Virus record (IMG/VR): IMGVR_UViG_3300049450_000009
Location: 1 to 29,007 of that record
Strand: one strand, 5' to 3'
Source of the DNA: a virus
Length of the DNA stretch: 29,007 bases
A program made the translations under genes and the position numbers. This document shows positions 134 through 28,905 of the stretch, one piece after another. The notes beneath the pieces are model-generated. The model saw only the letters and a list, made by a program, of their open reading frames with translations. It was not told where the DNA came from and searched no databases. Numbering within the stretch: the stretch's first letter is position 1; each line of letters starts with the position of its first letter.

Positions 134-160
134 TGGCGTGTGGGTTTGACTCACACGCCA
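134..160. other. Intergenic hairpin with a 9-bp stem enclosing a copy of the 13-bp dyad
   Basis: TGGCGTGTG (134-142) is perfectly complementary to CACACGCCA (152-160), with a 9-nt loop GGTTTGACT. The hairpin contains the dyad copy at 144-156, so the dyad is here embedded in a longer inverted repeat. It sits 10 nt after the stop of the upstream gene. No T-run follows, so a classical intrinsic terminator is not well supported; an attenuator, RNA-processing element or extended protein-binding site are alternatives. Confidence 0.6.
144..156. repeat. 13-bp dyad copy (exact)
   Basis: GTTTGACTCACAC, half-sites GTTTGA and GTGTGA. Intergenic, inside the hairpin at 134-160, upstream of the 77-aa gene. 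Confidence 0.85.
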
Positions 161-182
161 TTCAAACATAAGGAAACAAACA

Positions 183-416
183 ATGGAAAAAGAACTCCGA
201 GACATGATCTACAACACGCTACTTAAGGTATGGGAAACGGAGGGTCCACCGAATGTCCCTCAGTTAGCAGCACAGTCGATTCTCACCGCGCAGGCCGACG
301 CTCTCATAATAGATGTGCATCGTATATGTTCAAACGAAGATGAATATCATCAGTTCATCAGTTGGTTGAACAACATACGACTGGAATCAGATTTCGACAA
401 AGACGAAGAGGCGTAA
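183..416 (+). CDS. Small hypothetical protein, 77 aa
   Basis: The start is preceded by TAAGGAAACAAACA, a plausible ribosome binding site. The protein is acidic, mostly helical in appearance, and lacks a signal peptide, membrane segment or recognisable catalytic motif. Its stop is 1 nt before the next ATG (418), so the two genes are probably translationally coupled. It is the first complete gene after the hairpin-plus-dyad element at 134-160, which could regulate it. I do not recognise the family. Small genes of this kind beside phage replication genes are often early host-modulating proteins, but that is only context. Confidence 0.65.
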   Translation: MEKELRDMIYNTLLKVWETEGPPNVPQLAAQSILTAQADALIIDVHRICSNEDEYHQFISWLNNIRLESDFDKDEEA

Positions 417-417
417 G

Positions 418-618
418 ATGGAAAGCGTACTAATCAGACTGGACGAGCACATCGTCAATGGATCGGATCAGCTATTAGTGCGCATCCGTCCACAAGACAA
501 GCGGACAGTCAATCTAGCCGCAAGGGAACTAAACCTTACTGCGTCACAGTTCGTGCGGACCTTAGTGGTTCAAGCCGCACGAACTGTTGTTGCAGAGATA
601 GCCTCGAAGAAGGGATAA
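418..618 (+). CDS. Small ribbon-helix-helix-like DNA-binding protein, 66 aa
   Basis: The protein fits the ribbon-helix-helix (RHH) plan of DUF1778/CopG-type proteins: a short strand with alternating basic and hydrophobic residues (LLVRIRP, about 19-25), a first helix (KRTVNLAARELN, about 28-39), a TAS turn, and a second helix (QFVRTLVVQAARTVVAE, about 44-60). The pattern 'AA-x5-S/T-x-S-x-F-V-R' followed by 'A-A-R' resembles TacA-like antitoxins. RHH proteins bind short palindromes as dimers, with the ribbon in the major groove. No toxin is adjacent, so a phage regulator is more likely than an antitoxin. It is a candidate binder of the 13-bp dyad found across the window; that link is inference. 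Assignment is by pattern only. Confidence 0.5.
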   Translation: MESVLIRLDEHIVNGSDQLLVRIRPQDKRTVNLAARELNLTASQFVRTLVVQAARTVVAEIASKKG

Positions 619-621
619 ACG

Positions 622-972
622 ATGCGAAGACGTTTCCTTCAACGAGTTGTTCGACCTGAGCGCACAGTTCGTATTGTAGCTACATTGGTCGAAGCAGAGC
701 ATTTGAAGCCAGGCGATTTGTTCTCAGATCGAGGGCCTGACTATTGGAACATGTCGAAGCTCGCGTTTGGACAGGTGTTCGTCAAGTTTAATGACGACGC
801 TGATGCCGACGTAGGCTTCGAACCCGTTTATAGAATAACAATCGTCCGAGAAGATATATCCAAGGTCGAGAATCGCAATGCGCATTTGATCGAGGCTGAG
901 TTCAGTCCGTTCACACCACCAGGGATTGATTACGCGAGTTGGAGAAACAAGGTCAAGTGGAGAAGGGAGTGA
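622..972 (+). CDS. Hypothetical protein, 116 aa
   Basis: The start lies 3 nt after the previous stop, with GAAGAAGGGATAAACG as ribosome binding site. The N-terminus is very basic (MRRRFLQRVVRPERTVR). The centre has a 'LKPGDLFSDRGPDYW' segment and a beta-rich 'GQVFVKFNDDADADVGFEPVYRI' type stretch (quoted in part: GFEPVYRITIVRED). The 'hxPGDhF' pattern recurs in small phage proteins of unknown role. Its stop (TGA 970-972) lies just upstream of the helicase ATG at 975, giving tight coupling. No catalytic motif is recognised. Confidence 0.65.
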   Translation: MRRRFLQRVVRPERTVRIVATLVEAEHLKPGDLFSDRGPDYWNMSKLAFGQVFVKFNDDADADVGFEPVYRITIVREDISKVENRNAHLIEAEFSPFTPPGIDYASWRNKVKWRRE

Positions 973-985
973 GTATGAGTCACAC
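973..985. repeat. 13-bp dyad copy (exact), contains helicase start codon
   Basis: GTATGAGTCACAC; the ATG at 975-977 is the chosen start of the helicase. Confidence 0.85.
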
Positions 986-2862: not shown

Positions 2863-5332
2863 CGAGCTAGAGTCTCAAGTCCGAGCACTTGCCGACACGC
2901 AGGGACTTGAAATTCAATGCCTAAGCAGTGGCCCATTGGACGCGAAGGTAGCGTTCATAAGTAAGGGTCCAGGCGAATCAGAGGCACGTCAAGGTATACC
3001 GTTCGTTGGTAAGTCAGGCCAATTACTGTGGTCCGTCGTTAAACAATACGGTCTTACTCGCGATACCGTATATGTGACGAATGTCATCAAACGACAAATC
3101 GCATTCAGCGACGACGAGAAGTTTAAGATACATCCTGATGAGTTCACCAAGTGGTGTGAGCTAGTCCTATGGGAAGTCGGTCAATTGCCTAACGTCGAAG
3201 TTATTGTGCTGTTCGGCGGTGAGGCACTCGAAGCATTTCTATGCGAAAAGGGTATCGACAAATGGCGTGGGTCTGTTATCGATCTGATCCTCCCCAATAA
3301 CAAACGTGGTAAGGCAATCTGTGCAAACAATCCAGCGGATGCACTGCGTACGCCGAAGGTTGAAGTTACATTCATGATGAATTGCAAGCGGATCGAGCAA
3401 GTCCTGACTAACAAGTTCAAGCCGTATAAGGTTGATGGGATTATCAATCCTACGTATCGTGACGCCTTAAACTTCATCAGCGATTTACAACGCAGCGATA
3501 ATCCTGTGGCACTCGATATCGAAGGGCTCAATGATCAGACAGCTTGTATCGGTCTGTCGAATGATCCGCACCGTGCCATGTGTATCAATTGGCGTGATGA
3601 CTCAGGCAATCGTTATTCGGTAGGACAAGAGGCTAGCATACTCACAGCGATACAAGACCTGTGTGACTCACACCGGATCGTTGCACAGAATGGTGGGTTT
3701 GACTCATACTGGTGTTGGTTACGGGACAGAATTCGTATTAGGATTTGGTTCGATACGTTGCTTGCGCATCATACGCTTTATCCTCAGCTTCCGCATAACT
3801 TGGGATATCTCACGTCGCAGTACACAACGCATCCGTTCTACAAAGACGAAGGCGATTACTGGAAGGAAGGCGGTGACATAGACGAGTTCTGGAAGTATAA
3901 CTGCAAAGATGCAGCGATCACGTATCGTGTCTATGAGCGTGAATACGATGAACTTGAACGGCAAAAGCTCAAGGATTTCTTCTTCGGTCACGTCATGCGA
4001 GCACAACCGCATTTAGTCGAGGCCACTGTCCATGGTGTAGCAGTCGATCAAACCGTGAAAGAAGTCATAGCTCGTGAAGTTAATCGATATGTTGCCGAGA
4101 TGGAAAATGAATTTCATAGGTTAGTCCACGAGGCAACAGAAGATATGGATTACAATCCCAATCCCGCATCATGGCCGCAGATGAAGGAGTTATTCTTTCG
4201 TCGGCTAAACCTCCAAGGTAAAGGTACGTCAACCGACAAGACCAATCGTAATCACATTCTGCAGAACGCGCACACGCGACCAATAGAAAAGGAGATGTTA
4301 AGTGCGCTCGACGCATGGAAAAAAGAAGACAAGTTCCGGTCAACCTATGCTACGTCGAAGGAGTCGAAAGACGGCAGATTTAGATGCGAATATAAACAGT
4401 ATGGAGTTAGCAATGCACCAGGTCGGCTGTCTTCTAGCGAGCTTATTAATGGAGAGGGAGGAAATATGCAGAACCAGCCCGTTAGAGCCAGAGGCTTCTT
4501 TGTTTCTGATCCGGGCACTGTCCTCATATATTTCGATCTGGCGCAAGCTGAAGCGCAAGTTGTTGGTTTTAGAGCGGACATTATGAAGTGGAAAGAGCAA
4601 TTCGCACAAGCAAAAAAGGATGGAATCTATGACTGTCACCGAGCCCTCGCTGCCGAGATGTTCAAGGTTCCGTATGATTCTGTTCCTGTTAAGGATTGGG
4701 ATGAGAACAATCATCCAACTATTCGGTACGTCGCAAAACGTTGTCGTCACGGTCTCAATTACCGAATGGAACGGTTTCGACTCGCAGAAGTCACTGAACT
4801 ACCATATCACCAAGCAGCAAGAGCATTTCAGTTGTACCATCGAACAACACCAGAGCTAGTCCCGTGGTGGGACCGTGAGTCATACGAGTTCAAGAAGACA
4901 CGGACGATGTACAACGCGTTGGGGCGACGGTTCCGCGTGCTACAACGAATGGATGAAGAGGTAATGAAGTCCGTAATAGCGTTCTATCCGCAGAGTACAA
5001 TCGGCGATAAAGTTGTGCAGACTTGGTACATGAGTGAAGAAGACGACGAGTGGCCCAAGGGTTATGCTCGAATTGCCATCAACGTGCATGACAATCTTGT
5101 CGGTATCGTCGAGCCTGCGTATGCTAAAACTGCATTGAAGGTGTTAAAGAAGCACGCCGAGAGCCCTATCTGGATACAAGATGTGCATATGCGCAGGCTA
5201 CCAGAGCCATTGTCAATTGCAGCAGAGTTGAAGATGTCGTATCCGACTATCTGGGATGATAAGCTACATAAATTCATTGAAGATAAGAAAGGCTTGCACA
5301 GATGGTCGAACATGCAAGTCGTGAAGTTGTAG
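2837..5332 (+). CDS. Family-A DNA polymerase with 3'-5' exonuclease and N-terminal uracil-DNA-glycosylase-like domain
   Basis: Replicative polymerase, 831 aa. Residues about 26-185 resemble family-4 UDG: KGPGESEARQGIPFVGKSG (43-61), VYVTNVIK (78-85), VIVLFGGEAL (122-131). Only C28 and C107 match the four Fe-S cysteines (S31 and R86 replace the others), and the usual HP(S/A) motif reads NNPADAL (164-170). The exonuclease has D227-x-E229, N285-xxx-FD289 and D358. The polymerase has PGRLSS (528-533), motif A YFDLAQAE (D567, E572), motif B with R630, K634, G639 and Y642, and motif C VHDN (750-753) where VHDE is usual. No 5' nuclease is present. The ATG overlaps the kinase end; AGAAAGG precedes it. 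Two exact dyad copies lie at 3661 and 3697, next to and within the exonuclease II motif. Confidence 0.93.
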   Translation: MLSRNLTRDELESQVRALADTQGLEIQCLSSGPLDAKVAFISKGPGESEARQGIPFVGKSGQLLWSVVKQYGLTRDTVYVTNVIKRQIAFSDDEKFKIHPDEFTKWCELVLWEVGQLPNVEVIVLFGGEALEAFLCEKGIDKWRGSVIDLILPNNKRGKAICANNPADALRTPKVEVTFMMNCKRIEQVLTNKFKPYKVDGIINPTYRDALNFISDLQRSDNPVALDIEGLNDQTACIGLSNDPHRAMCINWRDDSGNRYSVGQEASILTAIQDLCDSHRIVAQNGGFDSYWCWLRDRIRIRIWFDTLLAHHTLYPQLPHNLGYLTSQYTTHPFYKDEGDYWKEGGDIDEFWKYNCKDAAITYRVYEREYDELERQKLKDFFFGHVMRAQPHLVEATVHGVAVDQTVKEVIAREVNRYVAEMENEFHRLVHEATEDMDYNPNPASWPQMKELFFRRLNLQGKGTSTDKTNRNHILQNAHTRPIEKEMLSALDAWKKEDKFRSTYATSKESKDGRFRCEYKQYGVSNAPGRLSSSELINGEGGNMQNQPVRARGFFVSDPGTVLIYFDLAQAEAQVVGFRADIMKWKEQFAQAKKDGIYDCHRALAAEMFKVPYDSVPVKDWDENNHPTIRYVAKRCRHGLNYRMERFRLAEVTELPYHQAARAFQLYHRTTPELVPWWDRESYEFKKTRTMYNALGRRFRVLQRMDEEVMKSVIAFYPQSTIGDKVVQTWYMSEEDDEWPKGYARIAINVHDNLVGIVEPAYAKTALKVLKKHAESPIWIQDVHMRRLPEPLSIAAELKMSYPTIWDDKLHKFIEDKKGLHRWSNMQVVKL
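3661..3673. repeat. 13-bp dyad copy (exact), in polymerase gene
   Basis: GTGTGACTCACAC, a symmetric G/G form; encodes CDSHR just before the exonuclease II motif. Confidence 0.85.
3697..3709. repeat. 13-bp dyad copy (exact), in polymerase gene
   Basis: GTTTGACTCATAC, 36 bp after the previous copy; overlaps the codons for FDSY, including the exonuclease II aspartate. Confidence 0.8.
4873..4885. repeat. 13-bp dyad variant (two mismatches), in polymerase gene
   Basis: CCGTGAGTCATAC; the core TGAGTCA and right half-site are intact. Confidence 0.5.
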
Positions 5333-5341: not shown

Positions 5342-5593
5342 ATGGACTGGCAGGCAAAACTGACAGAATGGCTCATCAACGCAGGTACTGTAGGTAGACG
5401 GCAGAGCGAATTGATTTCACGAGTGAGCACTAAGGTCGATGACCGTGAAGTGCTATCGTTTCTCAATTCGCTACTGGCCGAGGGCAAGGTGCAAAAGTTC
5501 ATCTTGCCGGGAGGCGTTATTCAGTGGCGAGCTACTACAAAGATACTGCCACCGAAAGTAGAGAAGCCAAAGGTAGATAAGTCCCTCAACTAG
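5342..5593 (+). CDS. Small winged-helix-like protein, 83 aa
   Basis: The start follows GTAGGAGCCCACG, a good ribosome binding site, 9 nt after the polymerase stop. The sequence fits a winged helix-turn-helix: helix 1 (WQAKLTEWLINAG), a 'RRQSELISRV' helix, a 'DDREVLSFLNSLLAEGKV' recognition-helix region, and a wing (KFILPGGVIQWRA). A lysine/proline-rich tail (PKVEKPKVDK) follows. It is the last + strand gene, and its stop codon TAG abuts the dyad copy at 5593-5605. It could be a small regulator or replication accessory protein. The fold call is by pattern only. Confidence 0.5.
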   Translation: MDWQAKLTEWLINAGTVGRRQSELISRVSTKVDDREVLSFLNSLLAEGKVQKFILPGGVIQWRATTKILPPKVEKPKVDKSLN

Positions 5594-5605
5594 TTTGAGT
5601 CAAAC
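5593..5605. repeat. 13-bp dyad copy (exact), between convergent stops
   Basis: GTTTGAGTCAAAC, a symmetric T/T form. Its first base is the last base of the + strand TAG stop; the - strand TGA stop begins at 5608 and ends at 5606. Confidence 0.9.
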
Positions 5606-8600
5606 TCACGGCGTAGGCACTTGTAAACTCGAATGCCAAGGCTTATGCGGATCGAGGTCTTGCAACTTAATGGGTTGTCCCATGCGCCGTGAGTAATCAG
5701 CTTCGATCTTGTCGATATTGTTGTTAATCGTTCGGGCGACGTTCTGGCGATATCCCTCCAAGTAGTTCCTTACGTCTATACGATTAGTAGTGTCAACACC
5801 GTGCCGTTGCAAGAACGACATCATCTGCGGACGCTGTTGTAGTTGTTGTTGCCATGTAGGATCGTTAGCTGAATCGTTGTGTCGCATTGTTTGTATCTGT
5901 TGTGTGGAATCTTTCCAGAAGTCCAACAACGTTTTGTATCCCTGGACCGTATCCTTACGCGTACGGTTAAGTAAGTCTTTTGCGAACATCTTATACAATT
6001 CGTTCTTAGGCTCAGGTTGACTCAAACCTGCAATGTCACGTGGTAGACGCTCAAGTCCCTGTTGCCGTGCCATCTGTTCGCCAGCTTTACTTAAAGGTTT
6101 CTCTCGACCGATTTGACGCTCGCCAGTCGTACCATACTTCGCGGCGTATTCAACCAATCCATCGAGTACCTTCTTACGTTCGAACATCTTCTCCGATTCT
6201 CGCGTCATACCAGACGCGATGTTACGTTGATCGGCTATGTTTGATGCTAGCCCCGTTCCTAGCATTTGTCTTGTACCTGCTCCCATAGCGTTCTTGGCCA
6301 TTTCCCAAGATGTTCCCCATGGATCGTCTTCACTGCGAGGGGTGTGAGCGGCAGCACTGTAAGCTTTAGTCATCGCTGCTACAAACCCTGGGTTCAGTGC
6401 ATACAACGTACGCTGCAATTTTTCGGGCAGAGTTGAGTTTTGATCCTTGGCATACAGTGGGTCTCTGCGTGCATACGAACCGGCACCAGCCAAGTTGCCA
6501 AGTCCCGCCGCCTCTGTGAGGGGTGATAGAAAACCTCCGATGTTTGATGGTGGTGCAACACCTCCTGCTTCGTACGCGGCACTCAGTACAGGCGGTATCT
6601 GCGGCAACATTGCAACATCCATAAACGCATGTGCTGCGTGCCCAAAATCTTCTCGAAGGGACGAGCGTACATGCTGTTGATCGCCAAACATATGATGCAT
6701 CGCAGCCCATACTATCATTTTATGAAGCACGTCTTCTTGTGGAATGGGCCATTGGTAACCGTCTTCGACCGGAGCGCCGGGCTTCGCAAAGTAAATAGTT
6801 GTAGCCTCTCTTGTTGGGTTTTGTCCATTCGTTGCATGGTCGATATACGACTTGCCATTAGGGTCTTTGCCCATCCACATATTATAAAGATACGAAGCAG
6901 CCGTAAGCTTCATAGGTGTTATGTGCTTTACATACGTGAACGGATTAATCAGCGAGGATGGATTGGACAGACGGTTTTTCCAACCTTGTTGTGTCATGCC
7001 TCCGAACGGAAGTTTTCTGTTGGCTTCATTTGCCATTTGATATGCAGTTAAGAACGGTCGTGCAGCTTGTCGTCCAGCATAGTTAATCGCTCCGCCGATA
7101 CCAGGTTCGCGTGGTCCAGGATCGAATCTTTCGCGTGCGCCACTTGGCATGAAAGCACGTCCACCAGTTCGAGGGTTACCTGATAATTCATTCGATTCGT
7201 GAACCAATTGTTCTAGCGGTGCTCGGCCTAGATTTCCTTCAACATATGCGAAGTGCGCAGCATTGCGACCCGCTTCCAGTGTATGCTTGAAAGCATTTAG
7301 AATAGGTGCAGCCCTACGTACCAGAGCGGAGTTTGCTCCCGGCATCACGCTGCCCATACCTCGAGCATTTTCCATAGCAGACTCAGCTTGAGTCATACGG
7401 CTTCCAGAAACGCCTCCCATGTGTTGTGTTCGAGCATATGTAGTGTTGGCGTGCCATCGCACCATTGCGCGTGCCATAGCTTCGGCGACTGGACGAATCG
7501 CTTGGCCACCATAGGTTCGACCGAACCATCCGTTACCGCCATGGAGAATAGCTTGTGCTATGTAATCTGTAAGCTGTGGAATTAATTGTGAGGGTATGGC
7601 GTGGATCACACTTCCACGTCCGAGGGGAATACGTGCATTTTGTCCACTAACCAACGTCCATGCTTTCGGGAGGTTCAGTAGCCCTGGCGCCTGACGGCCT
7701 AGTGGATTTGCACCCGTTAGTGCTTGCATCTTGCCTCTAAATCCTGGGGCTCTGCCAGCTTGTCCCACTGTAGTTTGCATGATCGACCAGTTACGCAGCA
7801 TGTCAGTCGTTGGTCCGAATACTGGATTGAAATAACCAGTTGTGCCTTGCCTGTAACCGTTCGCCAACGTGTTCCATGCACGCGAGAACCAACCACCTTT
7901 CCCATAAGGATCGTGGTTAAGCCAATCAGCAACATTACGATTCTCGGCTACGTAATGCTCCATTACGCCGTCGCGTCTGAAACTAACTTGGTTAGGTCTT
8001 GCGTCAGGATTCAATGTGAAGTGCTCAGGATCAACATGTCGTAAGATGATACGCCCGTTAGGCGTTCGAAGCAAAGCGTCGGCAGCTTCACGACTAGCCT
8101 GATTGCTAAGTGCTGCACGTACATTGGCAGAAGTCACGTCCTCGGCATTTCTGAATATGTTTCCGCGAACTGCTTCTGTGTTAGCGTCTGCACGATTTGC
8201 TTCGTAGATACGCTCGGCACCAGATACACGTTTGCTCCATGGTACTTCGTTCGGATGGTTCATGTTCAAATCGGCATGTTCTTGTCCCGTGATCATTCCC
8301 ATTTCGTGCTGGAAGCGTCGAGTTTCTTCTACATGCTCCCTGAACGCATCACGTAACGATACTAGTCCAGGATCGGTATGTTCCATGTTTCGTACTAAGT
8401 TCTGAGCGTCGGCCATCGTCAAGCCTCGCACGCGTACAGGTCCAGCTTGTGGTGTAGCACGTCCCGCAACAGTACCAGGATTGTTAGTCACGTGGCGAAT
8501 GTCATCGATGGTATCCATTGCGTGCATGTAATCTTGGAATGTAGGATGATTCTGAGCGGCACGCTCGATTTCAGGGAACGACATACGGGTACTGTAAGTT

Positions 8601-11500: not shown

Positions 11501-11514
11501 TGACGAATCTCCTG

Positions 11515-20758: not shown

Positions 20759-20760
20759 AG

Positions 20761-20773
20761 GTTTGACTCACAC
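20761..20773. repeat. 13-bp dyad copy (exact), 2 nt before the nozzle start codon
   Basis: GTTTGACTCACAC, in the gap between the connector-like and nozzle genes. Confidence 0.9.
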
Positions 20774-20784
20774 TTGGATTGCCA

Positions 20785-21474
20785 TTAAGGATACGAAACC
20801 CACTGATCAGGAACACCACCGTATTGAGAGTCGCTGAAGTTGATATCATGACTCGAAAGTTGCGACATGATATCCTTGTACTTCATTTCCATCATATTCT
20901 TGCACATGTCGGCAGCCGCAGCATTCAAATCATCGCCCGCCAGTGTCGTGTATGCCGTGCTGTATGCTAGCAAATCACGATCCAAGTATATTGTGTCTTG
21001 CCAATCCCATGCATCATTCTGCACAGGATAGAACTTGGCATACACATTGATCTTGCCGGTAGCAGTCTTCGGAAGCAAATATATTTTCTTCTTGTTGTAC
21101 AAAGGGTTGCTTACGTTCAGCGCATCCCAGTAAATAATACCGTTCCCACTTAACATATTCGACTGAAATGGACTAATATGACGTGGCCGCATACTTAAAT
21201 TCGTGCGGCTACCATCACGACGGACTGCAATAATGTCTTCAAAGTCGAGAACATTAAGCAAGTCATCCGTAACGGCTGTTCCAGTGGAACCGTCAAGTGT
21301 CAATTGTACCCAGTTACAGTAATGACGCCAGTTGTACTTCTTGAATAGCATGTTAAATCCGCGAATGCAGTCCGAGAAACAACGATCATCGGAGTACATT
21401 TGCACGCCTGGGCCTGTCACTTCGCCCACGATTTCTTGTGCATCATCGACGATGTTACGAATCGTAGCAGTCAT
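20785..21474 (-). CDS. Head-tail connector / adaptor-like protein (T7 gp11-like), 229 aa
   Basis: The gene lies between small virion proteins and the nozzle, the usual position of the podovirus adaptor. The sequence has 'DDAQEIVGEVTGPGVQMYSDDRCFSDCIRGFNMLF' near the N-terminus (quoted in part: DDRCFSDCIRGFNML), a pattern of adaptor proteins with early helices, then beta-rich stretches and a C-terminal helical part (DDLNAAAADMCKNMMEMKYKDI). An in-frame ATG lies at 21507, but GGCGAG seven nt before ATG 21474 and the lack of any ribosome binding site for 21507 favour the shorter start (MTATIRN). No motif proves the role. Confidence 0.6.
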   Translation of the reverse strand: MTATIRNIVDDAQEIVGEVTGPGVQMYSDDRCFSDCIRGFNMLFKKYNWRHYCNWVQLTLDGSTGTAVTDDLLNVLDFEDIIAVRRDGSRTNLSMRPRHISPFQSNMLSGNGIIYWDALNVSNPLYNKKKIYLLPKTATGKINVYAKFYPVQNDAWDWQDTIYLDRDLLAYSTAYTTLAGDDLNAAAADMCKNMMEMKYKDIMSQLSSHDINFSDSQYGGVPDQWVSYP

Positions 21475-21567
21475 GATAAATCTCGCCACGTCCGAGAGGA
21501 GATACACTGTATATAGGATATAAGAGTACGCTCGCTGCGCTCGCGTACTCTTATATCGTGTCCATTC
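21475..21567. other. Longest intergenic gap in the window, 93 bp
   Basis: This gap has no gene and no dyad copy, unlike most other gaps of the - strand unit. It contains the hairpin at 21517-21557 and a short palindrome ATACACTGTAT (21502-21512). It separates the 229-aa capsid-associated gene from the connector-like gene. Confidence 0.7.
21517..21557. terminator. Strong hairpin with a 15-bp perfect stem between virion genes
   Basis: GATATAAGAGTACGC (21517-21531) is perfectly complementary to GCGTACTCTTATATC (21543-21557), with an 11-nt loop TCGCTGCGCTC. No T-run follows on either strand, so it is not a classical intrinsic terminator. It may lower expression of the downstream tail genes relative to capsid genes, be an RNase processing site, or stabilise the 3' end of the capsid transcripts. 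Confidence 0.5.
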
Positions 21568-22257
21568 TTATGCGTAGAACTGCTGAATGCCGTGAAGACC
21601 ACCATTATTGGCAGCATTCACCCAATTGTCACCCATCATATCGACGGAAATCTGTCTGCCGTTGACAGCCACAACTGGCGTAAACGTTCCACGTGGATCG
21701 CCGGTGGTACGCGTCGCCGGATCGGTTAGATCAGGCAACGTGAATGCCGACGCAATGGAAACGATCACACCGGATTCACTCGACGAGAAGATGTTACCTT
21801 TGTACGGTAGACCTAATGCCGCACCTGATCCAACCGAATACGTAATGGCGTTTGTCGAAGGCGTGATGTTTCGTGATTTGATAATACGATAGAACGCTTT
21901 CTTCCCTACTAGGGCAGTCGCTGCGGCAGCTGAACCAGTGAACCGCTCGATCATTGGCTGGCCTAGGTAGTCCGTACCGTAAACGTCGATCACGTTAGCA
22001 TTGCCAGGAACACCACTCGGCGTGACGGTTATAGTCCTACCGTACGTCGAATCCACAACTATTGGATTTGTCGGAGCGGCATCGGTATTTGCTGCACTGT
22101 TAGCTGCAACAGCAGTTTGGTAAACCGTACCGCTAGCTGTTGCAGGTGAACCCAAGTCGAACGTTCCAGGTTCGTTTTCGATAACCGAGCAGGCGAACTG
22201 ACATGCCTTGACATACATGTTGACGCCACTTTGAAAGAACTTCCTATCGCGATCCAT
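21568..22257 (-). CDS. Virion structural protein, 229 aa
   Basis: The protein is rich in alanine, threonine, valine and glycine, beta-rich and without a signal peptide: VYQTAVAANSAANTDAAP, then GRTITVTPSGVPGNANVIDV, GTDYLGQPMIERFTG. It resembles the class of capsid-associated or decoration proteins encoded just downstream of major capsid genes, but no named family can be assigned. GGGAGAGTGAGTC precedes the ATG. The start lies 3 nt after the previous stop, and that junction contains the dyad core TGACTCA. Confidence 0.6.
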   Translation of the reverse strand: MDRDRKFFQSGVNMYVKACQFACSVIENEPGTFDLGSPATASGTVYQTAVAANSAANTDAAPTNPIVVDSTYGRTITVTPSGVPGNANVIDVYGTDYLGQPMIERFTGSAAAATALVGKKAFYRIIKSRNITPSTNAITYSVGSGAALGLPYKGNIFSSSESGVIVSIASAFTLPDLTDPATRTTGDPRGTFTPVVAVNGRQISVDMMGDNWVNAANNGGLHGIQQFYA

Positions 22258-22266
22258 GACTCACTC
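22254..22266. repeat. 13-bp dyad variant (three mismatches), at a gene junction
   Basis: CCATGACTCACTC; the core TGACTCA lies exactly where the stop of the 143-aa gene and the ATG of the 229-aa gene meet. Confidence 0.4.
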
Positions 22267-22692
22267 TCCCTTCTCGATGACCTGTTCGTTCAACAGAATA
22301 GGTCCGGTTTTCGCAGTGGCCATTTGAATGACCATGCGTTCCATGTCCACCATGGCACCGTGACGTGCTGCATCGTCTTGTGCAGACATCATTCTGCCGA
22401 GCGGACTGTTCGGATCAGCCAGACCCTCCATGTTGATGATGCGAGGCTTGCGATCCAAACCATAGTACGCAAGCGTTTTCTTGTCGCGAACACGTATCAC
22501 GTGCCCTCGGGGAAAGTAGACCATGTAACCCGCAGGCTCCTCCATGATCACTTTCTGCATCTCATGCGATTGCCTACCAGTGGCGGTCGCACTTCGCTTG
22601 TTGGGAACCATACGATAGACTTCACGCTTGACTTTGCCTTGTAGTTCGCGAACCACAAAGGACAATCGAGCGCCGTCTTGTGCTGGGAACAT
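22261..22692 (-). CDS. Small virion-module protein, 143 aa
   Basis: A charged protein with 'VVRELQGKVKREVYRMVPNKR', 'EEPAGYMVYFPRGHVIRVRD' and a C-terminal helix (DDAARHGAMVDMERMVIQ). The strands around RGHVIRVRD suggest a compact beta domain. It lies between the major capsid gene and the 229-aa structural gene, where a decoration or head-completion protein is common, but no motif identifies it. The ribosome binding site is AAGGGAG, and dyad copy 22707-22719 precedes it. Confidence 0.6.
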   Translation of the reverse strand: MFPAQDGARLSFVVRELQGKVKREVYRMVPNKRSATATGRQSHEMQKVIMEEPAGYMVYFPRGHVIRVRDKKTLAYYGLDRKPRIINMEGLADPNSPLGRMMSAQDDAARHGAMVDMERMVIQMATAKTGPILLNEQVIEKGE

Positions 22693-22706
22693 GTTAAACT
22701 CCCTTA

Positions 22707-22719
22707 GTGTGAGTCAAAC
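22707..22719. repeat. 13-bp dyad copy (exact), between capsid and 143-aa genes
   Basis: GTGTGAGTCAAAC, followed in the transcribed sense by an AAGGGAG ribosome binding site. Confidence 0.9.
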
Positions 22720-22729
22720 CCAATGTGGG

Positions 22730-23698
22730 TTAGTTGGTCAAGTACGCGTGGGTTCGGTAGTTCCTCCACGTGCAAAGCTGACCTTCCCACACTACGCGGC
22801 GGCCGGTCGCATCCATCGACCACGGAGCGACAAGCTTCTTAATCTTCATATTGACGCCGCGAAGCACATGCAACGTCATGTATCCGTCGTTGACGAAGTA
22901 CGCGACGTTGGGAGAGAGTTTTTCATCGAACAGGAGAGGGATTCCGTTATGCGTCGTGCCAACGATCCCAAGATTAACCAATTTTTTGCCAGTTCCGGTT
23001 GCCTGTAGATCGATGTGCTGCTTGTCTCTGGCAGCGGCCTTGTGCATTCGGTAGATATTTCTACCGGCGAAGATGACAGACGGTTGCGGTGAGCTTTGAC
23101 CGTCTGTAGATCGATTAAGGTCGAGTTCCGTGATGTCATCGAAGGCTTCCTCGATGTTTTCTGGCGTCAGTGTTCCTTGGAAGTCGTATGCGGATGTCCG
23201 CCATTGGGACTCCGCGGCCATGCTAATACCCCCAACAGAACCACTGGTAGGATCGACAGGAATAAGATTTCCCAGTCCGTTAGGATCGGTGCCAGCACCC
23301 ACAGAAGTATGATAAGCAGCAAATTGGCGACTAATAGATTCGTCGAGAGCCATAATCTTGCCCTTGATGATCTTGAATATCGCCGCACGTCCTTGGTTCT
23401 CATCTTCTTCCTGATCCGAAATGATCAGCGATCCAACCACGCGTGACATGAAGTGGTTCACGGTGATGAATTCGTTGGTCTGGTTGACCGGCACAGTATC
23501 GTAATACTGCATCGATGTAACGTTCGGGTTGAGGCCCGTGATTAACGGGTTGCTGATCTGAGGCCCGCCGTCCTCAACGACCACACGCTTTTTTGCGTGC
23601 AAATACGCCGAGACGGTGCCGCTGATGGCCGAGGCCATGATCAATTTCGCACGACTACGCGTGAGCATTGCATTCACAACCGTGTCGAGAGTAGCCAT
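22730..23698 (-). CDS. Major capsid protein, 322 aa
   Basis: It directly follows the scaffold gene in transcription order, the usual place and about the usual length. Recognisable segments are VVNAMLTRSRAKLIMASAIS near the N-terminus, MQYYDTVPVNQTNEFITVNH, 'GLGNLIPVDP' (a phrase typical of HK97-fold capsids), 'LTPENIEEAFDDI' and 'IPLLFDEKLSPNVAYFVND'. The last pattern, a target-region strand followed by the reported sample, is common in major capsid proteins. AGGAGAAAG precedes the ATG. No protease motif is present. Function is by context and pattern. Confidence 0.85.
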   Translation of the reverse strand: MATLDTVVNAMLTRSRAKLIMASAISGTVSAYLHAKKRVVVEDGGPQISNPLITGLNPNVTSMQYYDTVPVNQTNEFITVNHFMSRVVGSLIISDQEEDENQGRAAIFKIIKGKIMALDESISRQFAAYHTSVGAGTDPNGLGNLIPVDPTSGSVGGISMAAESQWRTSAYDFQGTLTPENIEEAFDDITELDLNRSTDGQSSPQPSVIFAGRNIYRMHKAAARDKQHIDLQATGTGKKLVNLGIVGTTHNGIPLLFDEKLSPNVAYFVNDGYMTLHVLRGVNMKIKKLVAPWSMDATGRRVVWEGQLCTWRNYRTHAYLTN

Positions 23699-23718
23699 TT
23701 TGAAACTTTCTCCTGTTC

Positions 23719-23731
23719 GTGTGAGTCACAC
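23719..23731. repeat. 13-bp dyad copy (exact), between scaffold and capsid genes
   Basis: GTGTGAGTCACAC, a symmetric form; includes the scaffold stop codon. Confidence 0.9.
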
Positions 23732-24859
23732 CACGCCGAGTTGGTCGAGTGTGTCACGTAAGATTTGGTCGTAGGAGGCATTCACCGGAGCGACGTTGTT
23801 TGTACCATAGTTCAACGGCGCTCCGCGTCCTGCCGGGAGATTACGACGCATGGAATTACCATTTGGGCGTTGCTGTCCCTTGTTTTGGTTCATGCGCATC
23901 ATGTTAAGTTGAATTTTCGCCCATACCTCCCCCAAAGACATATTCTGAAACTGAGGTTCGCTCAGTACAGCATGAAATATGGGAATGTATTGACGAGCAC
24001 CAGGGTTCTCGTTGAAGAATCCATGTACCTCACTTTCTGTTTGACGAAGCTGAGCCTGTGCAGCTTGCGTACGTTGCTGTTGGATTTGTTCTTGTTCGGT
24101 TCTCTGCCGAATTGGTGCAGTTACCTGCGAGATTTCCTGTCGAACGATATCGACGAGCGACTTTGCGTCAACGCCACCTGGCGCTATACCAATCTTTGAT
24201 ACATCCACACCGGCCGTTGCAGCCATAGTAAGAAGTTTTCGAATTGTAGCAACGGGATCGCGCTTTGCCTCAGCCGCGAGTTGCAACGCTTGAATTTGCT
24301 CTCCGTCATTAAGACCGAGACGCGCACCTGTACCGTTTCTGTCGCGTAACTGTTCTTGTAGTTGTGTGACACGTCCGTGAAGCTCTTGGCCGATCTCAAC
24401 TGCACGATTAAGTCTATTGGTTACGTCCTGCGCTCTGTGAGTTTCCTGCGCAAGCTGAGCACGTGCTCGAACGTTGTCGGTATAGAGCCGTGCTTCCATA
24501 CCTGCACGGGCAACAACCTGACCGTTCGGACCGACGAAATTTCCTCGAGCATCTTGCGTAATTTGTCCAGGTTGGAATTGAGGCTGCTGACGCTGCGGTT
24601 GTTGTCCAGGCTGTTGTCGCTGAACTTCCGGTTGGTAAGTCGGCTGTCGCTGTTCGATCCGCTGGTCGATGTCTTGACTTTCGCTTTCAAAGCTTTCGCT
24701 TCCTTGTTCAAATGCGGATTCGTCCATGCCGAGATTGTCGAGAACCATATCCATGGCTTCGGAGCCAGGACCATTGTCGCCGCCAGTGTGATCCATACCA
24801 CCCTGACCACCCATACCGCCATTTGATTGCGAAAAGCCTTCGCCTGATGTCATCGACAT
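23726..24859 (-). CDS. Scaffolding (capsid assembly) protein, 377 aa
   Basis: Glutamine- and arginine-rich, highly helical and acidic at the N-terminus, without a catalytic motif: EGSNGGMGGQ-type glycine-rich start, QQRQPTYQPEVQRQQPGQQPQ-type region (quoted in part: QQPGQQPQRQQP), then coiled-coil-like GRVTQLQEQLRDRN and a helical middle. The C-terminus (SYDQILRDTLDQLGVV) is a compact amphipathic helix of the type that contacts the capsid protein. The position between portal and capsid genes is diagnostic. The stop codon TGA (23726-23728) lies inside dyad copy 23719-23731. CGGAGATAGCAC precedes the ATG. Confidence 0.8.
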   Translation of the reverse strand: MSMTSGEGFSQSNGGMGGQGGMDHTGGDNGPGSEAMDMVLDNLGMDESAFEQGSESFESESQDIDQRIEQRQPTYQPEVQRQQPGQQPQRQQPQFQPGQITQDARGNFVGPNGQVVARAGMEARLYTDNVRARAQLAQETHRAQDVTNRLNRAVEIGQELHGRVTQLQEQLRDRNGTGARLGLNDGEQIQALQLAAEAKRDPVATIRKLLTMAATAGVDVSKIGIAPGGVDAKSLVDIVRQEISQVTAPIRQRTEQEQIQQQRTQAAQAQLRQTESEVHGFFNENPGARQYIPIFHAVLSEPQFQNMSLGEVWAKIQLNMMRMNQNKGQQRPNGNSMRRNLPAGRGAPLNYGTNNVAPVNASYDQILRDTLDQLGVV

Positions 24860-24871
24860 GTGCTATCTCCG

Positions 24872-24884
24872 GTTTGAGTCAAAC
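24872..24884. repeat. 13-bp dyad copy (exact), between portal and scaffold genes
   Basis: GTTTGAGTCAAAC, a symmetric form; its last base belongs to the portal TAG stop. Confidence 0.9.
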
Positions 24885-27301
24885 TACTGTAAATTGGGAA
24901 CGCTCTGGCCCCCTGGTGAAGCGCCTGGCATTCCACTTGGTCCGGGCGGTGCCATTGGTTTCGGCGGTACTCCTAATTTCGGAGCACCTGCACCAGCACC
25001 TTGCGGTTGAGTTTGTCCTGAATGCAGTGCTGCAACATGCTGCAACAGGAAGCTCTGAATCTGTTGATCCGTTTTACCTTGCTGTTTCATTGCGACGACT
25101 TGTTGCTTGATTTCTGGTGGCAAGTTTGCCAGAATCTGTGCTATTGGATTTTGCCCCTGTGCGCCCTGTTGAGGTTGACCGCCTTGTGCCCCGGGTTGTG
25201 CTGGTGCGCCTCCCTGAACCGATTGTGGACCTTGTGCAGTGCCTTGTGGCGCGCCTACGCCTTGAGCGGTCTTGGCTTGCATTTCCTGTGTAATAGCCTG
25301 CCAGTCTTCCGGCTTAATAACAACTTCCGTAAACGCTTGCTCCAATACCCGAAGCATAATTTGAAGCGTCGCTCCGGGAGCCGCTTGCGCAAACTGACCC
25401 ACAGCTTGGGCGATTTGTACGGCTTCCTTTTTCTTGAATACACTGTTGGGTTTCTCCATTGACCCGGCTACGATTTCAACGCTGTACCGACCATTAAATT
25501 CCACCATTGACATTTGACGCCACGCAAGCGCAAATGTAGGCCCGACGAGATTGACTACATCGTCTTGTGTTAAGTTTTGCACAGACAATTCTGCAAGCGA
25601 ATGTGCAATTGCAGCTACTACGTCTTCGACAACATCGACCTTCGCGCCAACGGAAAGCTTCATGGATTCTTGGTAGGTATTAACAGCGTCTTCATTTGTG
25701 TTGGTTTTAAATTGTACGCCTCTAAGCGCATCAGACGTGTTCGTAATTCGATTGATAGCATCAAGGAGGCTCTGCTTATCAAATAACTCCTTGTACTGAT
25801 CCATCCGCGGAACGATTGGTTCAATAAGATCACTGACCTTCTTCTCGCCCGCTTTGACACCAATAACATGTTTCGCGTCACCTGACCCTTCACCGCGGAC
25901 GGCGTTGATGAGCTTTTCGATTTGGTCACTGTCCACCATGTCTGAGTTATATAGAAAGTAGTCGAACACAGACGTTCGCATTCGCTTCATTTTGCGATTG
26001 ATGTCATTGATCGCATCTTGTTGATCCATGTAGTATGCAGTTTCGCCTACAGCGACCGTGCCGCCGGTGGACATCGTGTAACCGATAATGAAATACGGGA
26101 AAAATCGACTGATCACCAATGGATCGTCCCATACCCACAACGGCCACGACCAATCGTCACGCTGAAATAGCATAACGCGACGTGCCACCTTGTCCCATAC
26201 AATATAACACTCGGTCGTATACATGTTGAGATAGGCCGTGCGCTCGTCGTCGGTATGATGCGTTGACTGTGACCCTGATTCGATAGCTTGTAAGACTAAA
26301 CCGAGTCCGTCATCACGCCGTCCATCTGCCGTGTTAAATGCAGCCTTATGCGTCGGCTTATAAACCAATGTACGTGCGCCTGCAGACGTTTCCTTGATAC
26401 CGCCATCGTTGCCGACAAGGTTATTCGAGTTTGAGTCATTCTGAGTCGCTGGGTCCGGTATAGTGTAACGCTCTGTCAACATCGCTGTGGACAAGAAACA
26501 ACGTTCAGCCATCCAATCCGCGTCGCTGCCATCTTGCTGTTCAGCATATGGATCGATGATAAGATTATGCGGAAGCACATTACAAAGCGACGGGCCGGAT
26601 GGTTTCAGTACTTCCATTGATAGTTCAAGTGCTTCAAGCTTGCCGTAGATCAGTTCGACTTGTTCTTGAGTTTTCGCCGATGCAAGTTCGTCTGTTAACG
26701 ATTGCATCTGTTGAACAGCAATCTCCCGCGAGTCGTTTTTCTTCGTCCAGTCAAGTTTCAGAACGCCAAAATTGGTAAGCAAACCGACACCAACGGCCTT
26801 CTTAATCTTGGGCTTCGCATTAAGACCGTTTTGACCTCGAATAAGAGTATTGAGAACTTTTTCGAGCGACTTGGTAAATGGTTCTTCAACTTCGTCGATT
26901 GTACTACATGTGACATCGGGATTTTTGCTGTAAACCGCAGGCAACATAATGTTAAGATTGGAAAACATAATGTTTTCCGTGCCGTCACCACGCTTAAACA
27001 GTCCGCGTGTGGACTCGATGGACTTGTTCTGATTGTTATTGTAATACTTAAACACTTCATCCCAAATGATCACAACTTGTTCGTATGCAGCGATAGCAGC
27101 AGTAACCTTTTTCTCCCACAACTTACCAACGGAAGAGCTTATTGCGATACGACTACCTTCGTAAATACGATAAACTGGCGCCGGTTCCGTTGACTTCGCA
27201 ACACCTTGATCGCCAACATCATTCGTGTCAACGTTGAACACGTCAGTTGCATCGACTCCGGTCGGACCTAAATCATCGCCACGATCATAAAAATCTGACA
27301 T
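24884..27301 (-). CDS. Portal protein, 805 aa
   Basis: The portal forms the dodecameric vertex through which DNA is packaged and ejected. It lies directly downstream of the large terminase and is long, as in podovirus portals. Characteristic segments are 'FSNLNIMLPAVYSKNPDV' (about 133-150), 'NVLPHNLIIDPYAEQQDGSDA', 'CYIVWDKVARRVMLFQRDDW' and 'QQDAINDINRKMKRMRTSVFDY'. The C-terminal about 130 residues are glutamine/proline/glycine-rich. No ribosome binding site precedes the ATG; dyad copy 27304-27316 lies 2 nt upstream, with only GTGAG as weak alternative. Another variant copy lies inside (26429-26441). Confidence 0.88.
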   Translation of the reverse strand: MSDFYDRGDDLGPTGVDATDVFNVDTNDVGDQGVAKSTEPAPVYRIYEGSRIAISSSVGKLWEKKVTAAIAAYEQVVIIWDEVFKYYNNNQNKSIESTRGLFKRGDGTENIMFSNLNIMLPAVYSKNPDVTCSTIDEVEEPFTKSLEKVLNTLIRGQNGLNAKPKIKKAVGVGLLTNFGVLKLDWTKKNDSREIAVQQMQSLTDELASAKTQEQVELIYGKLEALELSMEVLKPSGPSLCNVLPHNLIIDPYAEQQDGSDADWMAERCFLSTAMLTERYTIPDPATQNDSNSNNLVGNDGGIKETSAGARTLVYKPTHKAAFNTADGRRDDGLGLVLQAIESGSQSTHHTDDERTAYLNMYTTECYIVWDKVARRVMLFQRDDWSWPLWVWDDPLVISRFFPYFIIGYTMSTGGTVAVGETAYYMDQQDAINDINRKMKRMRTSVFDYFLYNSDMVDSDQIEKLINAVRGEGSGDAKHVIGVKAGEKKVSDLIEPIVPRMDQYKELFDKQSLLDAINRITNTSDALRGVQFKTNTNEDAVNTYQESMKLSVGAKVDVVEDVVAAIAHSLAELSVQNLTQDDVVNLVGPTFALAWRQMSMVEFNGRYSVEIVAGSMEKPNSVFKKKEAVQIAQAVGQFAQAAPGATLQIMLRVLEQAFTEVVIKPEDWQAITQEMQAKTAQGVGAPQGTAQGPQSVQGGAPAQPGAQGGQPQQGAQGQNPIAQILANLPPEIKQQVVAMKQQGKTDQQIQSFLLQHVAALHSGQTQPQGAGAGAPKLGVPPKPMAPPGPSGMPGASPGGQSVPNLQ
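26429..26441. repeat. 13-bp dyad variant (one mismatch), in portal gene
   Basis: GTTTGAGTCATTC; encodes NDSN. Confidence 0.5.
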
Positions 27302-27303
27302 GA

Positions 27304-27316
27304 GTTTGACTCACAC
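27304..27316. repeat. 13-bp dyad copy (exact), 2 nt before the portal start codon
   Basis: GTTTGACTCACAC, in the gap between terL and the portal gene. Confidence 0.9.
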
Positions 27317-27319
27317 TGA

Positions 27320-27351
27320 GGGGTTTCGCCGACCCCCGCCTTCGCGAGGGC
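27320..27351. other. Two small GC-rich hairpins between TerL and portal genes
   Basis: GGGG (27320-27323) can pair with CCCC (27333-27336), and GCCTT (27338-27342) pairs with AGGGC (27347-27351) on the + strand with a G-T wobble; in the - strand transcript the second stem has one C-A mismatch. They lie immediately upstream (in the transcribed sense) of the dyad copy at 27304. They could modulate the TerL-portal boundary, but the stems are short. Confidence 0.3.
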
Positions 27352-27357
27352 AAGACT

Positions 27358-28878
27358 TCACGCTCCCGATGACCTATCGCCCATTTCTACTTCATGCCAT
27401 TGCATCCATTTCTTAGGCAATGCTTCTTTCGGCGTCACGATTTTGCTCACGTCTGGCAAATACGAAAGCATGTATTTCAACGTATTCATTGCATGATCGT
27501 TCGTGTCGGCTGGCTCGTCGATACGCTGACCCAATGGGTTTTGTTTCCAGTAATACGTATTGAATTCATCCTGAATAAAAGGCAAATCGTCACAAAAATA
27601 AATCAATGGCCCAGGGTCTTCGCCGGTGATGATATGCGGTATTCCCTTCCGGCCATTCAGATACGAGTTTACTTTGGCGATACCTGTAACAATATCGTTA
27701 CTTGCCGGCCGCATCCACAGTCCCATCTCCTCGAACAACTTAGCGATAGTGCTGCCTGTCTCCCGCAGTCCTGCGACAACAACCTTTTTAAAAATAGCTG
27801 GGTCTGCGTGAATGCGTCCGTTAAACATAAGCATTCCTGAGTATTTGGCTCGGATGCGCCTAATTTCATCGGGCTGTTTGTCATATGAAAAGTCCGTCTT
27901 GTAGTAACCGTCGAGCACTATTACTCGACCCATATGGTCCACGAAAGCCAGCAGATAACAACTTGGTGACACGATACCAAAGTCGTACGCCTCGATAACT
28001 TGCACCTGGACGTGATGCAGAAGGCAATCTGCTAAATAGTGTTCAGCATCTTTGCGTGTGAGAGTATGAGTCACGTGGTCATAGTCTGGATGGACAAGAC
28101 CCTCGAACGCTACCCATTTGCCAAGTAGATAGCGGTCACGCATTTGACCCTTGAATGTCGCTTCAAGGGTTCTGATGTAGTCATCGCTAAGGTTACTCTT
28201 ATTAGCATACGTATCACTTTCGAATAATTCCAGAATTGGTAATTTCGTATCTTCATATACAAGTAGCTTTTCAGTGCGCTGTCCGGTTTTCAGCCACAAC
28301 AAATACGGTTGCACAAGTTCTTTATAGAACCAATTATGTGATGGATTCGCTGTGAGCATAACCCACTGCGGGCCACTTGATGGCATCGACTCGTCGTCTT
28401 CATCGGATTGGTAAGGCGTGTCGCCGCGTAAACGGCCTAACAAATCTAAGAAGTCCTTATGTATGATCCCTGGGTCTTCAACCTGATCGACCCCAATCCA
28501 GTCGTACGTAGCAGAAAGAAGATTGCTCGTTGAACTCCCGTCATCTCGAGAACGTCCACGCTGCGATATGTAACGGAAATTTACTATACTTCCGTTGTGC
28601 ATATAGCAAGTGTTATCCTCTTGTGTTGGTTTCTTTTTGATCCACGATGCGGGACACCATTTAAAAAACTCTCTACGAAGTGTGTCGTTGAGCTTAGGAT
28701 ATGTTTCACGAGCTAGCAGGCCATTGGAACCTGGATAGTCCTTGACCAGCTTAAGTGCCTTCACTGACAACGCTGCGGTCTTACCATTCGCAAACGCCCC
28801 ACCAAAAATCTGTACGCGTGCTCGGCTCATGTGGAACCGATACTGCACAGAACCTTCGATGAGTTTGTAGTTAGGCAT
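27358..28878 (-). CDS. terL: Terminase large subunit, 506 aa
   Basis: ATP-driven DNA-packaging motor and headful or site-specific nuclease. Walker A is GGAFANGKT (26-34), Walker B lies in ATYDWIGVDQVED (123-135, with D131 and E134), and a coupling motif is LTANP (175-179). The nuclease part contains 'IEAYDFGIVSPSCYLLAF' with a first acidic residue, an HADPAIF segment, and TNDHAMNTLKY near the end (D461, H462). Length is usual for the family. AGGAACCAAACTT precedes the ATG, and dyad copy 28893-28905 lies just upstream. It heads the visible part of the virion module. Confidence 0.93.
   Translation of the reverse strand: MPNYKLIEGSVQYRFHMSRARVQIFGGAFANGKTAALSVKALKLVKDYPGSNGLLARETYPKLNDTLRREFFKWCPASWIKKKPTQEDNTCYMHNGSIVNFRYISQRGRSRDDGSSTSNLLSATYDWIGVDQVEDPGIIHKDFLDLLGRLRGDTPYQSDEDDESMPSSGPQWVMLTANPSHNWFYKELVQPYLLWLKTGQRTEKLLVYEDTKLPILELFESDTYANKSNLSDDYIRTLEATFKGQMRDRYLLGKWVAFEGLVHPDYDHVTHTLTRKDAEHYLADCLLHHVQVQVIEAYDFGIVSPSCYLLAFVDHMGRVIVLDGYYKTDFSYDKQPDEIRRIRAKYSGMLMFNGRIHADPAIFKKVVVAGLRETGSTIAKLFEEMGLWMRPASNDIVTGIAKVNSYLNGRKGIPHIITGEDPGPLIYFCDDLPFIQDEFNTYYWKQNPLGQRIDEPADTNDHAMNTLKYMLSYLPDVSKIVTPKEALPKKWMQWHEVEMGDRSSGA
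28064..28076. repeat. 13-bp dyad variant (two mismatches), in terL
   Basis: GTATGAGTCACGT; encodes VTHT on the - strand. Confidence 0.45.
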
Positions 28879-28892
28879 AAGTTTGGTTCCTG

Positions 28893-28905
28893 GTGTGACT
28901 CACAC
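28893..28905. repeat. 13-bp dyad copy (exact), upstream of terL
   Basis: GTGTGACTCACAC, a symmetric form; directly adjoins the TAG stop of the upstream gene. Confidence 0.9.

Follow-up and report, generated by a model that had tools for sequence, protein, structure and literature searches.

Distributed operators are a known kind of element, so far from a few temperate phages that read them with other proteins than the one considered here. In mycobacteriophage L5 and other cluster A phages, a genome has upwards of 20 stoperators of 13 bp, and as many as 30, which lie in short intergenic spaces, with operators in promoter regions in addition; the sites are asymmetric and oriented with transcription, and their binder is a monomer with a helix-turn-helix and a stoperator domain (PMC9283540). 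The letters of the motif differ between cluster A lineages and immunity types (PMC6550527). The subject of this report is a family of 13-bp dyads, GTNTGASTCANAC, in a 29,007-bp virus record (IMGVR_UViG_3300049450_000009; "the window" below is this whole stretch), which is a fragment of an IMG/VR phage of about 44 kb. Like the L5 stoperators, the site is 13 bp long, is present in many copies over the genome (here 37 to 55), is mostly intergenic and varies in its letters between lineages. Unlike them, it is symmetric and lies also within genes, its candidate binder is a ribbon-helix-helix (RHH) protein, and no integrase was detected in the relatives searched.

Other dispersed repeats offer partial parallels. 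In T1-like phages of lytic lifestyle, 22-bp repeats (16 in Stevie, 20 in T1, and found in TLS too) are likewise dispersed and mostly intergenic; their authors liken them to stoperators and give their function as unknown; they are asymmetric and run in one direction, and no binder is named in that description. The SP-beta master repressor MrpR acts on repeated SPBRE elements at many places of its own genome, but these are about ten promoter-region sites with a 15-bp motif, the protein has a tyrosine-recombinase fold and the phage is temperate (PMC10516654). The start-associated sequences of cluster K are 13-bp repeats near start codons, 11 to 19 per genome; unlike the dyads they lack symmetry, occur only in the right half of the genome and are proposed for translation (PMC3203893). 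The dyads are not restricted to translation starts in one orientation, being found within genes and at convergent junctions as well. MatP at matS and CdbA of Myxococcus are RHH proteins on dispersed DNA-organising sites and are fold matches of the candidate binder; their sites are chromosomal and far sparser. MatP has additional domains. The conserved inverted repeats of phiC31 are dispersed, symmetric operators of a phage repressor; they are longer, are bound by another repressor and belong to a temperate phage. A literature search, with subscription journals largely outside its reach, found no description of distributed phage dyads bound by an RHH protein, nor of a symmetric, RHH-linked, evenly tiled and lineage-specific version in phages without a detected integrase.

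The phages described here come from soil, are uncultured and infect bacteria. Each has about 40 private 13-letter mirror-image sites spread rather evenly over the genome, and a small protein encoded by the phage probably binds these sites and thereby silences or organises its DNA. An even chance is given to the sites being distributed operators of a phage RHH repressor, most likely the 66-amino-acid product of window positions 418–618 (plus strand), resembling L5 stoperators in their action and differing from them in their symmetry.

The dyad family and its lineage-specific forms

Twenty-one exact copies of GTNTGASTCANAC were counted between window positions 144 and 28905, as a preliminary description of this DNA had reported, and none in 100 dinucleotide-preserving shuffles of the window. 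With up to two mismatches, 32 places were obtained against 8.0 expected, so that only some of the 11 inexact places are real. A weight matrix trained on the near-twin genome G001 and applied to the window retained six of the 11, namely the four with one mismatch (6015, 7386, 15863 and 26429) and those at 18261 and 24786, both just above the cut-off. In the 21 exact copies the third half-site position was T, G or A and never C, as had been claimed; the nine mixed GTTTGA/GTGTGA sites were also counted again, and all nine are a single sequence, GTTTGACTCACAC, or its complement. Their half-site asymmetry is perhaps partly a by-product of Shine-Dalgarno use (see below). An RNA hairpin was considered and rejected on geometry, no folding having been run: one base between two 6-bp arms is too little for a loop, and in mixed sites the arms do not pair throughout. 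The proposal of a DNA site for a symmetric dimer gained support: relatives keep a symmetric dyad in other letters, and the candidate binder has the predicted fold of a DNA-binding dimer.

Relatives were drawn from IMG/VR by terminase, capsid, polymerase and helicase, with at most the best 80 loci per scan used. Genes were called with a simple open reading frame (ORF) caller, so start positions are approximate. The whole of G001 (44,355 bp; matched by window 1–25761 at 99.85% and by window 25115–29007 at 100%) holds 40 exact sites, and at least one exact match was found in 18 of 19 related records searched. Few were found in G003 (5), G008 (10) and G014 (1) because a shifted motif is in use there. 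In a blind search for perfect dyads, a TG-type dyad ranked top in all 11 records of 43–48 kb, G001 included. Enrichment thus extends to the rest of the genome and to the relatives, as the preliminary description had anticipated.

The letters change with the lineage. Half-sites in G001 are a mixture of GTTTGA, GTGTGA and GTATGA; the dyad is GTTTGANTCAAAC or its core in G002, G006 and G009, TTTGANTCAAA in G003 and G008, GTGTGANTCACAC in G010–G012, a mixed GTGTGA/GTATGA form in G013 and TGTGTNNNACACA-like in G014. Among 49 groups defined by their RHH sequence, GTATGANTCATAC is the dyad of L166 and L240, and CTTTAANTTAAAG was obtained for L218 from four sites only; TGTGTGTSACACACA is another genome-wide dyad among the relatives. 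The centre base is mostly C or G, with A/T common in G011 and some further groups. Matrix scans, at cut-offs that admit about one chance site per genome, gave 37–55 sites per genome in ten genomes. G014 stands apart: its 118 raw matches overlap in TG repeats and come to 40 after merging, and its spacing figures are spoiled. It was left out of the orientation, intragenic-spacing and Shine-Dalgarno counts and included in the junction counts.

More remote relatives gave a mixed picture. G020 has 28 copies of a dyad written CTTTAANTTAAAG, CTTTAASTTAAAG or CTTTAACTTAAAG, with a coding-strand centre base of C in 24 and G in 4, and its binder may perhaps differ and be asymmetric. Genome-wide dyads were also found in G023 (L294–L296; 55 copies of TACAGNNNCTGTA in 46 kb), G024 (20 kb; 16 copies of TACAANNNTTGTA) and G022 (31 copies of TAAAN5TTTA); no RHH was detected in any of these four. 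Two records with a weak RHH match carried 22 copies of CATTNNAATG (G025) and a faint dyad only (G026). The dyad search gave none in G018 (a remote 21.9-kb record), none genome-wide in G028 and none in several other remote loci. Six named phages distantly similar by polymerase or capsid had no comparable genome-wide dyad, the best being a dyad of score 32 with 6 copies in Desulfofustis phage.

Placement, conservation and double use of the sites

Site centres were non-coding in 56–84% of cases in ten genomes (433 sites), though only 9–16% of the genome is non-coding. When the junctions of 11 genomes were pooled, a site was present in 91 of 121 co-directional gaps of 25–60 bp, 57 of 94 of 10–24 bp, 87 of 143 longer than 60 bp and 6 of 236 shorter than 10 bp, as well as at 9 of the 13 junctions where genes converge and at all 12 where they diverge. 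Divergent regions held 1–7 sites each, or 3.8 per kb pooled against about one per kb genome-wide; they are no denser than non-coding DNA generally, yet several sites in one gap are unusual. Spacing was more even than random in the ten genomes without G014 (coefficient of variation 0.53–0.74 against 0.95–0.97), and between 0 and 71 of 2000 random sets per genome were as even. The 120 intragenic sites lay on average 823 bp from the nearest site, compared with 684 bp (standard deviation 31) when they were repositioned within genes; none of 2000 repositionings gave as large a value, which suggests that coverage as such is important. Of the 120, 20 had another site no more than 300 bp away.

The positions of some sites outlast extensive divergence of the genes beside them. 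A site was kept in nine of 11 genomes before each of the tape-measure, portal, terminase and q19 genes, whose identities to G001 are 24–35%, 45–71%, 54–77% and 42–65%, respectively. It was present in eight of 11 before the major head gene (82–96% identity) and in none of 11 before some genes, such as q18 and q44. The check proposed in the preliminary description, whether relatives keep sites at the same junctions, thus came out positive in divergent relatives, though by no means at all junctions. Within the DNA polymerase gene, the dyad at window 3661–3673 occupies the same codons in 10 of 11 genomes, only G012 having lost it. Its letters mostly fit the motif of the genome that carries it: TTT GAC TCA CAC in G002, G006 and G009, TGT GAC ACA CAC in G014, and TGT GAC/GAG TCA CAC or CAT elsewhere; the TGT form stands in G001, G003 and G008 though T prevails at that place in their sites. 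The amino acids change along with the motif letters. Because the codons are the same, the letters fit the motif and the amino acids follow, the site is read as being under selection on DNA; drift at the synonymous rate, which the preliminary description had set against its own proposal, was not seen there.

Site centres favour distances of about 9 and about 21 bp ahead of start codons. At 7–10 bp, the centre base on the coding strand was G (TGAGTCA) in 42 of 43 sites and C in one, and none of the 43 starts had another Shine-Dalgarno sequence. These sites seem, from their letters, to double as the Shine-Dalgarno sequence, their own GAG serving the ribosome, in which case their fixed orientation needs no asymmetric binder. 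At 20–24 bp, the centre was G in 38, C in 30 and another base in 2, and a separate Shine-Dalgarno sequence was present for 58 of 70. Of the 190 sites that lie 3–40 bp before a start codon, the 43 with this apparent double role make up roughly one in four. On the coding strand of ten RHH-clade genomes the centre base was G in 161 sites and C in 125, and individual genomes lean to one base or the other; the excess of G can be accounted for by the sites linked to a Shine-Dalgarno role (42 G, 1 C). Given the dyad symmetry and these counts, an orientation with transcription of the L5 type was not found. In the window, dyads at 14924–14936, 20761–20773 and 27304–27316 (the last before the portal gene) end 2 bp before a start codon. 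The first reads GTGTGAGTCAAAC-NN-ATG on the minus strand and places GAG at the Shine-Dalgarno position, and the other two are apparent cases of the same double use.

The candidate binder and the weighing of explanations

The 66-amino-acid protein fits the RHH pattern of a strand followed by two helices in its predicted structure. Its AlphaFold monomer model (pLDDT 92) has helices at residues 25–37 and 42–65 and no assigned strand, as the ribbon forms in the dimer. The best solved matches were RHH proteins (KacA, AtaR, TacA1, PutA, AmrZ, Arc, CopG and MatP), several of them bound to operator DNA, with structural Z scores of 5–7 over residues 14–66; Foldseek E values were weak (0.36 and above), and a Z of at most 7 is a level the tool calls common. 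The assignment was made because the solved matches are consistently RHH and because a profile match to 7zg6 was obtained (E 2e-4). Pfam similarity to TacA1 was weak (E 0.0014, below the cut-off), and of 34 aligned relatives 12 matched TacA1 and 14 were NikA-like at E up to 0.01. An arginine at the strand position is present in all but two of the 49 aligned groups; Q18, L20 and R22 are taken to be at DNA-contact positions, from ungapped CopG and Arc ranges. The gene lies directly upstream of the helicase gene in all 11 genomes inspected (G012 by eye and by profile), and a gene of single-stranded DNA-binding protein (SSB)-like appearance lies slightly upstream of it, no family search having been made. 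The closest solved RHH-domain relatives by sequence and fold are the DUF1778/TacA antitoxins KacA, AtaR and TacA1. Such antitoxins are autorepressors, and the gene of their GNAT toxin lies next to theirs; no acetyltransferase toxin gene was recognised beside the RHH gene, the neighbours being small unknown genes and the helicase gene.

Co-occurrence of the protein and the dyad was examined at 102 helicase/polymerase loci of at least 8 kb with the region present, after 37 of 139 that were too short or truncated had been excluded; the loci are redundant, several sharing a contig, and contain 39 distinct RHH sequences. Both the RHH and a TG-type dyad were present at 81 loci and neither at 21. At E <1e-10 the RHH was found at 81 of 81 TG-dyad loci and 0 of 21 others. 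At E <1e-3 two of the 21 (L283 and L284) matched, as did L280 in a more sensitive search, and these three have a CATTNNAATG dyad. Among the 14 early-gene families tested (structural genes were outside the test), only the RHH showed this pattern, the next best scoring 68 of 81 against 3 of 21. Helicase, AAA_24 ATPase and q47 were present in both sets, and the other families missed at least 13 of the 81 dyad loci, in some cases because the locus ends first. The RHH is the best candidate binder.

Covariation of residues and motif is suggestive. The comparison began with 54 RHH groups. Five had too few sites of the seeded kinds and were set aside (three of them with the CATTNNAATG type), and a further 5 of the 49 remaining, with fewer than 6 sites, did not enter the mutual-information analysis. 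Strand residues QxxYR go with GTATGA, QxxFRC mostly with GTGTGA, Qxx[VI]R mostly with GTTTGA and PTVVRLT with TGTGTGT; L191 and L239 are exceptions, and phylogeny accounts for at least as much of the pattern. A convergent case is provided by L204/L217, a separate lineage with V before the arginine and GTTTGA. The partial correlation with motif distance was 0.167 for the RHH beta-strand, with 4 of 500 permutations as high. The evidence is held to be no stronger than this because alignment columns favour polymerase and helicase and because tree-based independent pairs numbered only 1–2, too few to test.

Several results weigh against the preferred reading. When residues were compared with motif class, column mutual information did not single out the RHH, and the top 25 columns, whether ranked by z or by excess, were all from polymerase or helicase, so phylogeny confounds the comparison; in the partial correlation the helicase reached 0.280 and the RHH helices gave −0.184. 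The RHHs of L188 and L191 share their strand letters and differ in dyad. The 21 dyad-less loci are remote relatives, and presence alone therefore cannot prove binding. In G020, G022, G023 and G024 no RHH was detected although other dyads are spread over their genomes, so a different protein can act as binder. Stoperators belong to lysogeny, for which support is lacking here: no tyrosine (PF00589) or serine (PF00239) integrase was matched in 14 relatives of 43–48 kb. Neither was ParA-type PF13614 in the same 14, and one scan of GTDB genomes for prophages with the capsid alignment gave 47 stretches that fit the pattern and no relative; the phages are taken on these grounds to be probably non-integrating, and they may be maintained in some other way.

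We infer that each 13-bp dyad would be bound by an RHH dimer whose antiparallel beta-ribbon enters the major groove. Binding would act genome-wide, at about one site per kb, because most widened gene junctions, and long genes as well, carry a site. Initiation would be blocked in the multi-site divergent intergenic region, and elsewhere the bound protein would impede elongation by RNA polymerase, as the L5 repressor does at stoperators. The phage DNA would be kept in, or returned to, a transcriptionally quiet state, which could serve a delay in establishment, pseudolysogeny, superinfection exclusion or clearing of the DNA before packaging. Control of initiation alone does not fit, since sites lie between convergent gene ends and in mid-gene; where genes converge, the protein is unlikely to act on the initiation or the translation of one or the other. 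Of the roles listed in the preliminary description, a distributed operator fits best, with a mark for replication or packaging, or an organiser of the genome, as lesser possibilities.

A real though lesser possibility is a genome organiser, in which RHH dimers about once per kb would serve replication, segregation or packaging by folding, bridging or protecting the DNA, with little direct effect on transcription. The even spacing in ten genomes is its best argument, together with the displacement of intragenic sites from their neighbours, the sites found where genes converge and midway along long genes, and the presence of MatP and CdbA among the solved matches. Those two (Z about 5), however, score no better than Arc and CopG and below the antitoxin RHHs (Z 6–7), and 66 residues are too few to include a domain for bridging; roadblocks, too, could be evenly spaced, and the several sites per divergent region in most genomes and the intragenic sites with a close neighbour also speak against an organiser. 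Roadblocks or silencers are favoured over an organiser because divergent regions are multi-site, the known short RHH proteins are mostly repressors and the motifs recall cluster A immunity types. It is improbable that another phage protein binds the same kind of site and that the RHH merely tracks the clade. The RHH-less remote genomes with dyads of their own speak for such a protein, as does the existence of further small conserved early proteins, one of which (5342–5593) has sub-threshold winged-helix similarity. The RHH is nevertheless the sole tested early family with the strict pattern given above, its fold suits a short dyad, and the 83-amino-acid protein of 5342–5593 was found at only 66 of 81 dyad loci and at 5 of 21 others, some loci ending before its place.

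An element of translation, acting in RNA or at the ribosome in the manner of the cluster K sequences, would account for the clustering of sites before start codons (23 of 53 in G001 against 4.7 expected) and for the Shine-Dalgarno double use at 7–10 bp. It is nonetheless very unlikely, as sites farther upstream are unoriented and mostly accompanied by a separate Shine-Dalgarno sequence (the 58 of 70 at 20–24 bp compare with 279 of the 366 genes that lack a site), control of translation does not fit sites inside genes or where two genes converge, and translation does not need two-fold symmetry. Hardly credible is a host-driven mark, whether CcrM methylation, whose motif GANTC is contained in TGASTCA, or promoter −35 boxes, whose motif TTGACT is contained in GTTTGACTC. 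The letters of the window sites do overlap both, but the consensus sites TGTGTGTSACACACA, CTTTAANTTAAAG and TACAGNNNCTGTA do not contain GANTC and those with GTGTGA do not contain TTGAC, and promoter-like sites were not enriched in window 10000–29007 (15 found, 21.4 expected).

Operators of an RHH repressor remain the preferred account. A wider proposal is put forward only tentatively: that non-integrating phages mark their own DNA about once per kb, genes included, with a lineage-specific dyad read by an RHH protein that changes with it. By such marking the whole genome would be switched on or off and superinfection excluded in a lineage-specific way, all without integration; distant relatives would have swapped the binder and kept the tiling principle. 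The dozens of related genomes and contigs are a natural series for comparing site letters, spacing and candidate binder, and two constraints can be read directly from them, the fixed polymerase codons and the apparent doubling of binding site and ribosome-binding site. Why a phage spreads the site of one protein over its genome, and how the protein and about 40 sites shift specificity together, can be tested now.

Further sites and genes of the window

Genes of the window matched phage families for a Dda-like helicase, nucleotide kinase, DNA polymerase, tape measure, tail fibre and tail proteins, major head protein, portal and terminase large subunit; replication genes are on the plus strand and structural genes on the minus strand. 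No close relative was found among the named phages of the searched collection. The top-ranked named phages had identities of 25.7% for the polymerase (all 996 records <60%), 23.2% for the capsid and 23.5% for the terminase, and the RHH had no match in named phages at E up to 0.1.

The remaining dyads, none of which is assigned a strand, are located as follows. The first, GTTTGACTCACAC at 144–156, precedes the earliest of the early genes predicted along the window and sits within a longer inverted repeat (135–159; GGCGTGTG...CACACGCC). At 973–985, GTATGAGTCACAC has the predicted helicase start codon (975) inside it; another dyad is within the helicase gene (1844–1856), a second one in the DNA polymerase gene is at 3697–3709, and that at 5593–5605 lies between two convergent gene ends. 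The tape-measure gene contains one-mismatch sites at 6015–6027 and 7386–7398 and dyads at 8859–8871 and 10626–10638, and the dyad upstream of it (11515–11527) has one base in common with the previous stop codon. Gene junctions are occupied at 12341–12353, 22707–22719 and 24872–24884. Intragenic dyads were found in a 502-amino-acid gene (13639–13651), the tail fibre gene (17890–17902) and an 801-amino-acid tail gene (18804–18816 and 19029–19041). The two weak sites with two mismatches span 18261–18273 and 24786–24798. Dyads at 23719–23731 and 28893–28905 are upstream of the major head protein and terminase large subunit genes, respectively, and one-mismatch sites lie in the portal gene (26429–26441) and in an acetyltransferase gene (15863–15875). 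The latter gene (phrog_1249; 15853–16374, minus strand) is in the structural region, 15 kb from the RHH gene, and is the only such match in the window.

The portal ORF of the window (24884–27301, minus strand) is single and encodes 805 amino acids; at that place G001 has a 646-bp repeated stretch and two shorter ORFs, a difference that may be an assembly error or a real duplication. A 74-amino-acid protein encoded at 11877–12101 (minus strand) has an Acb2/Tad1 hairpin domain (Pfam E 5e-13) and is a possible anti-CBASS or anti-Thoeris sponge.

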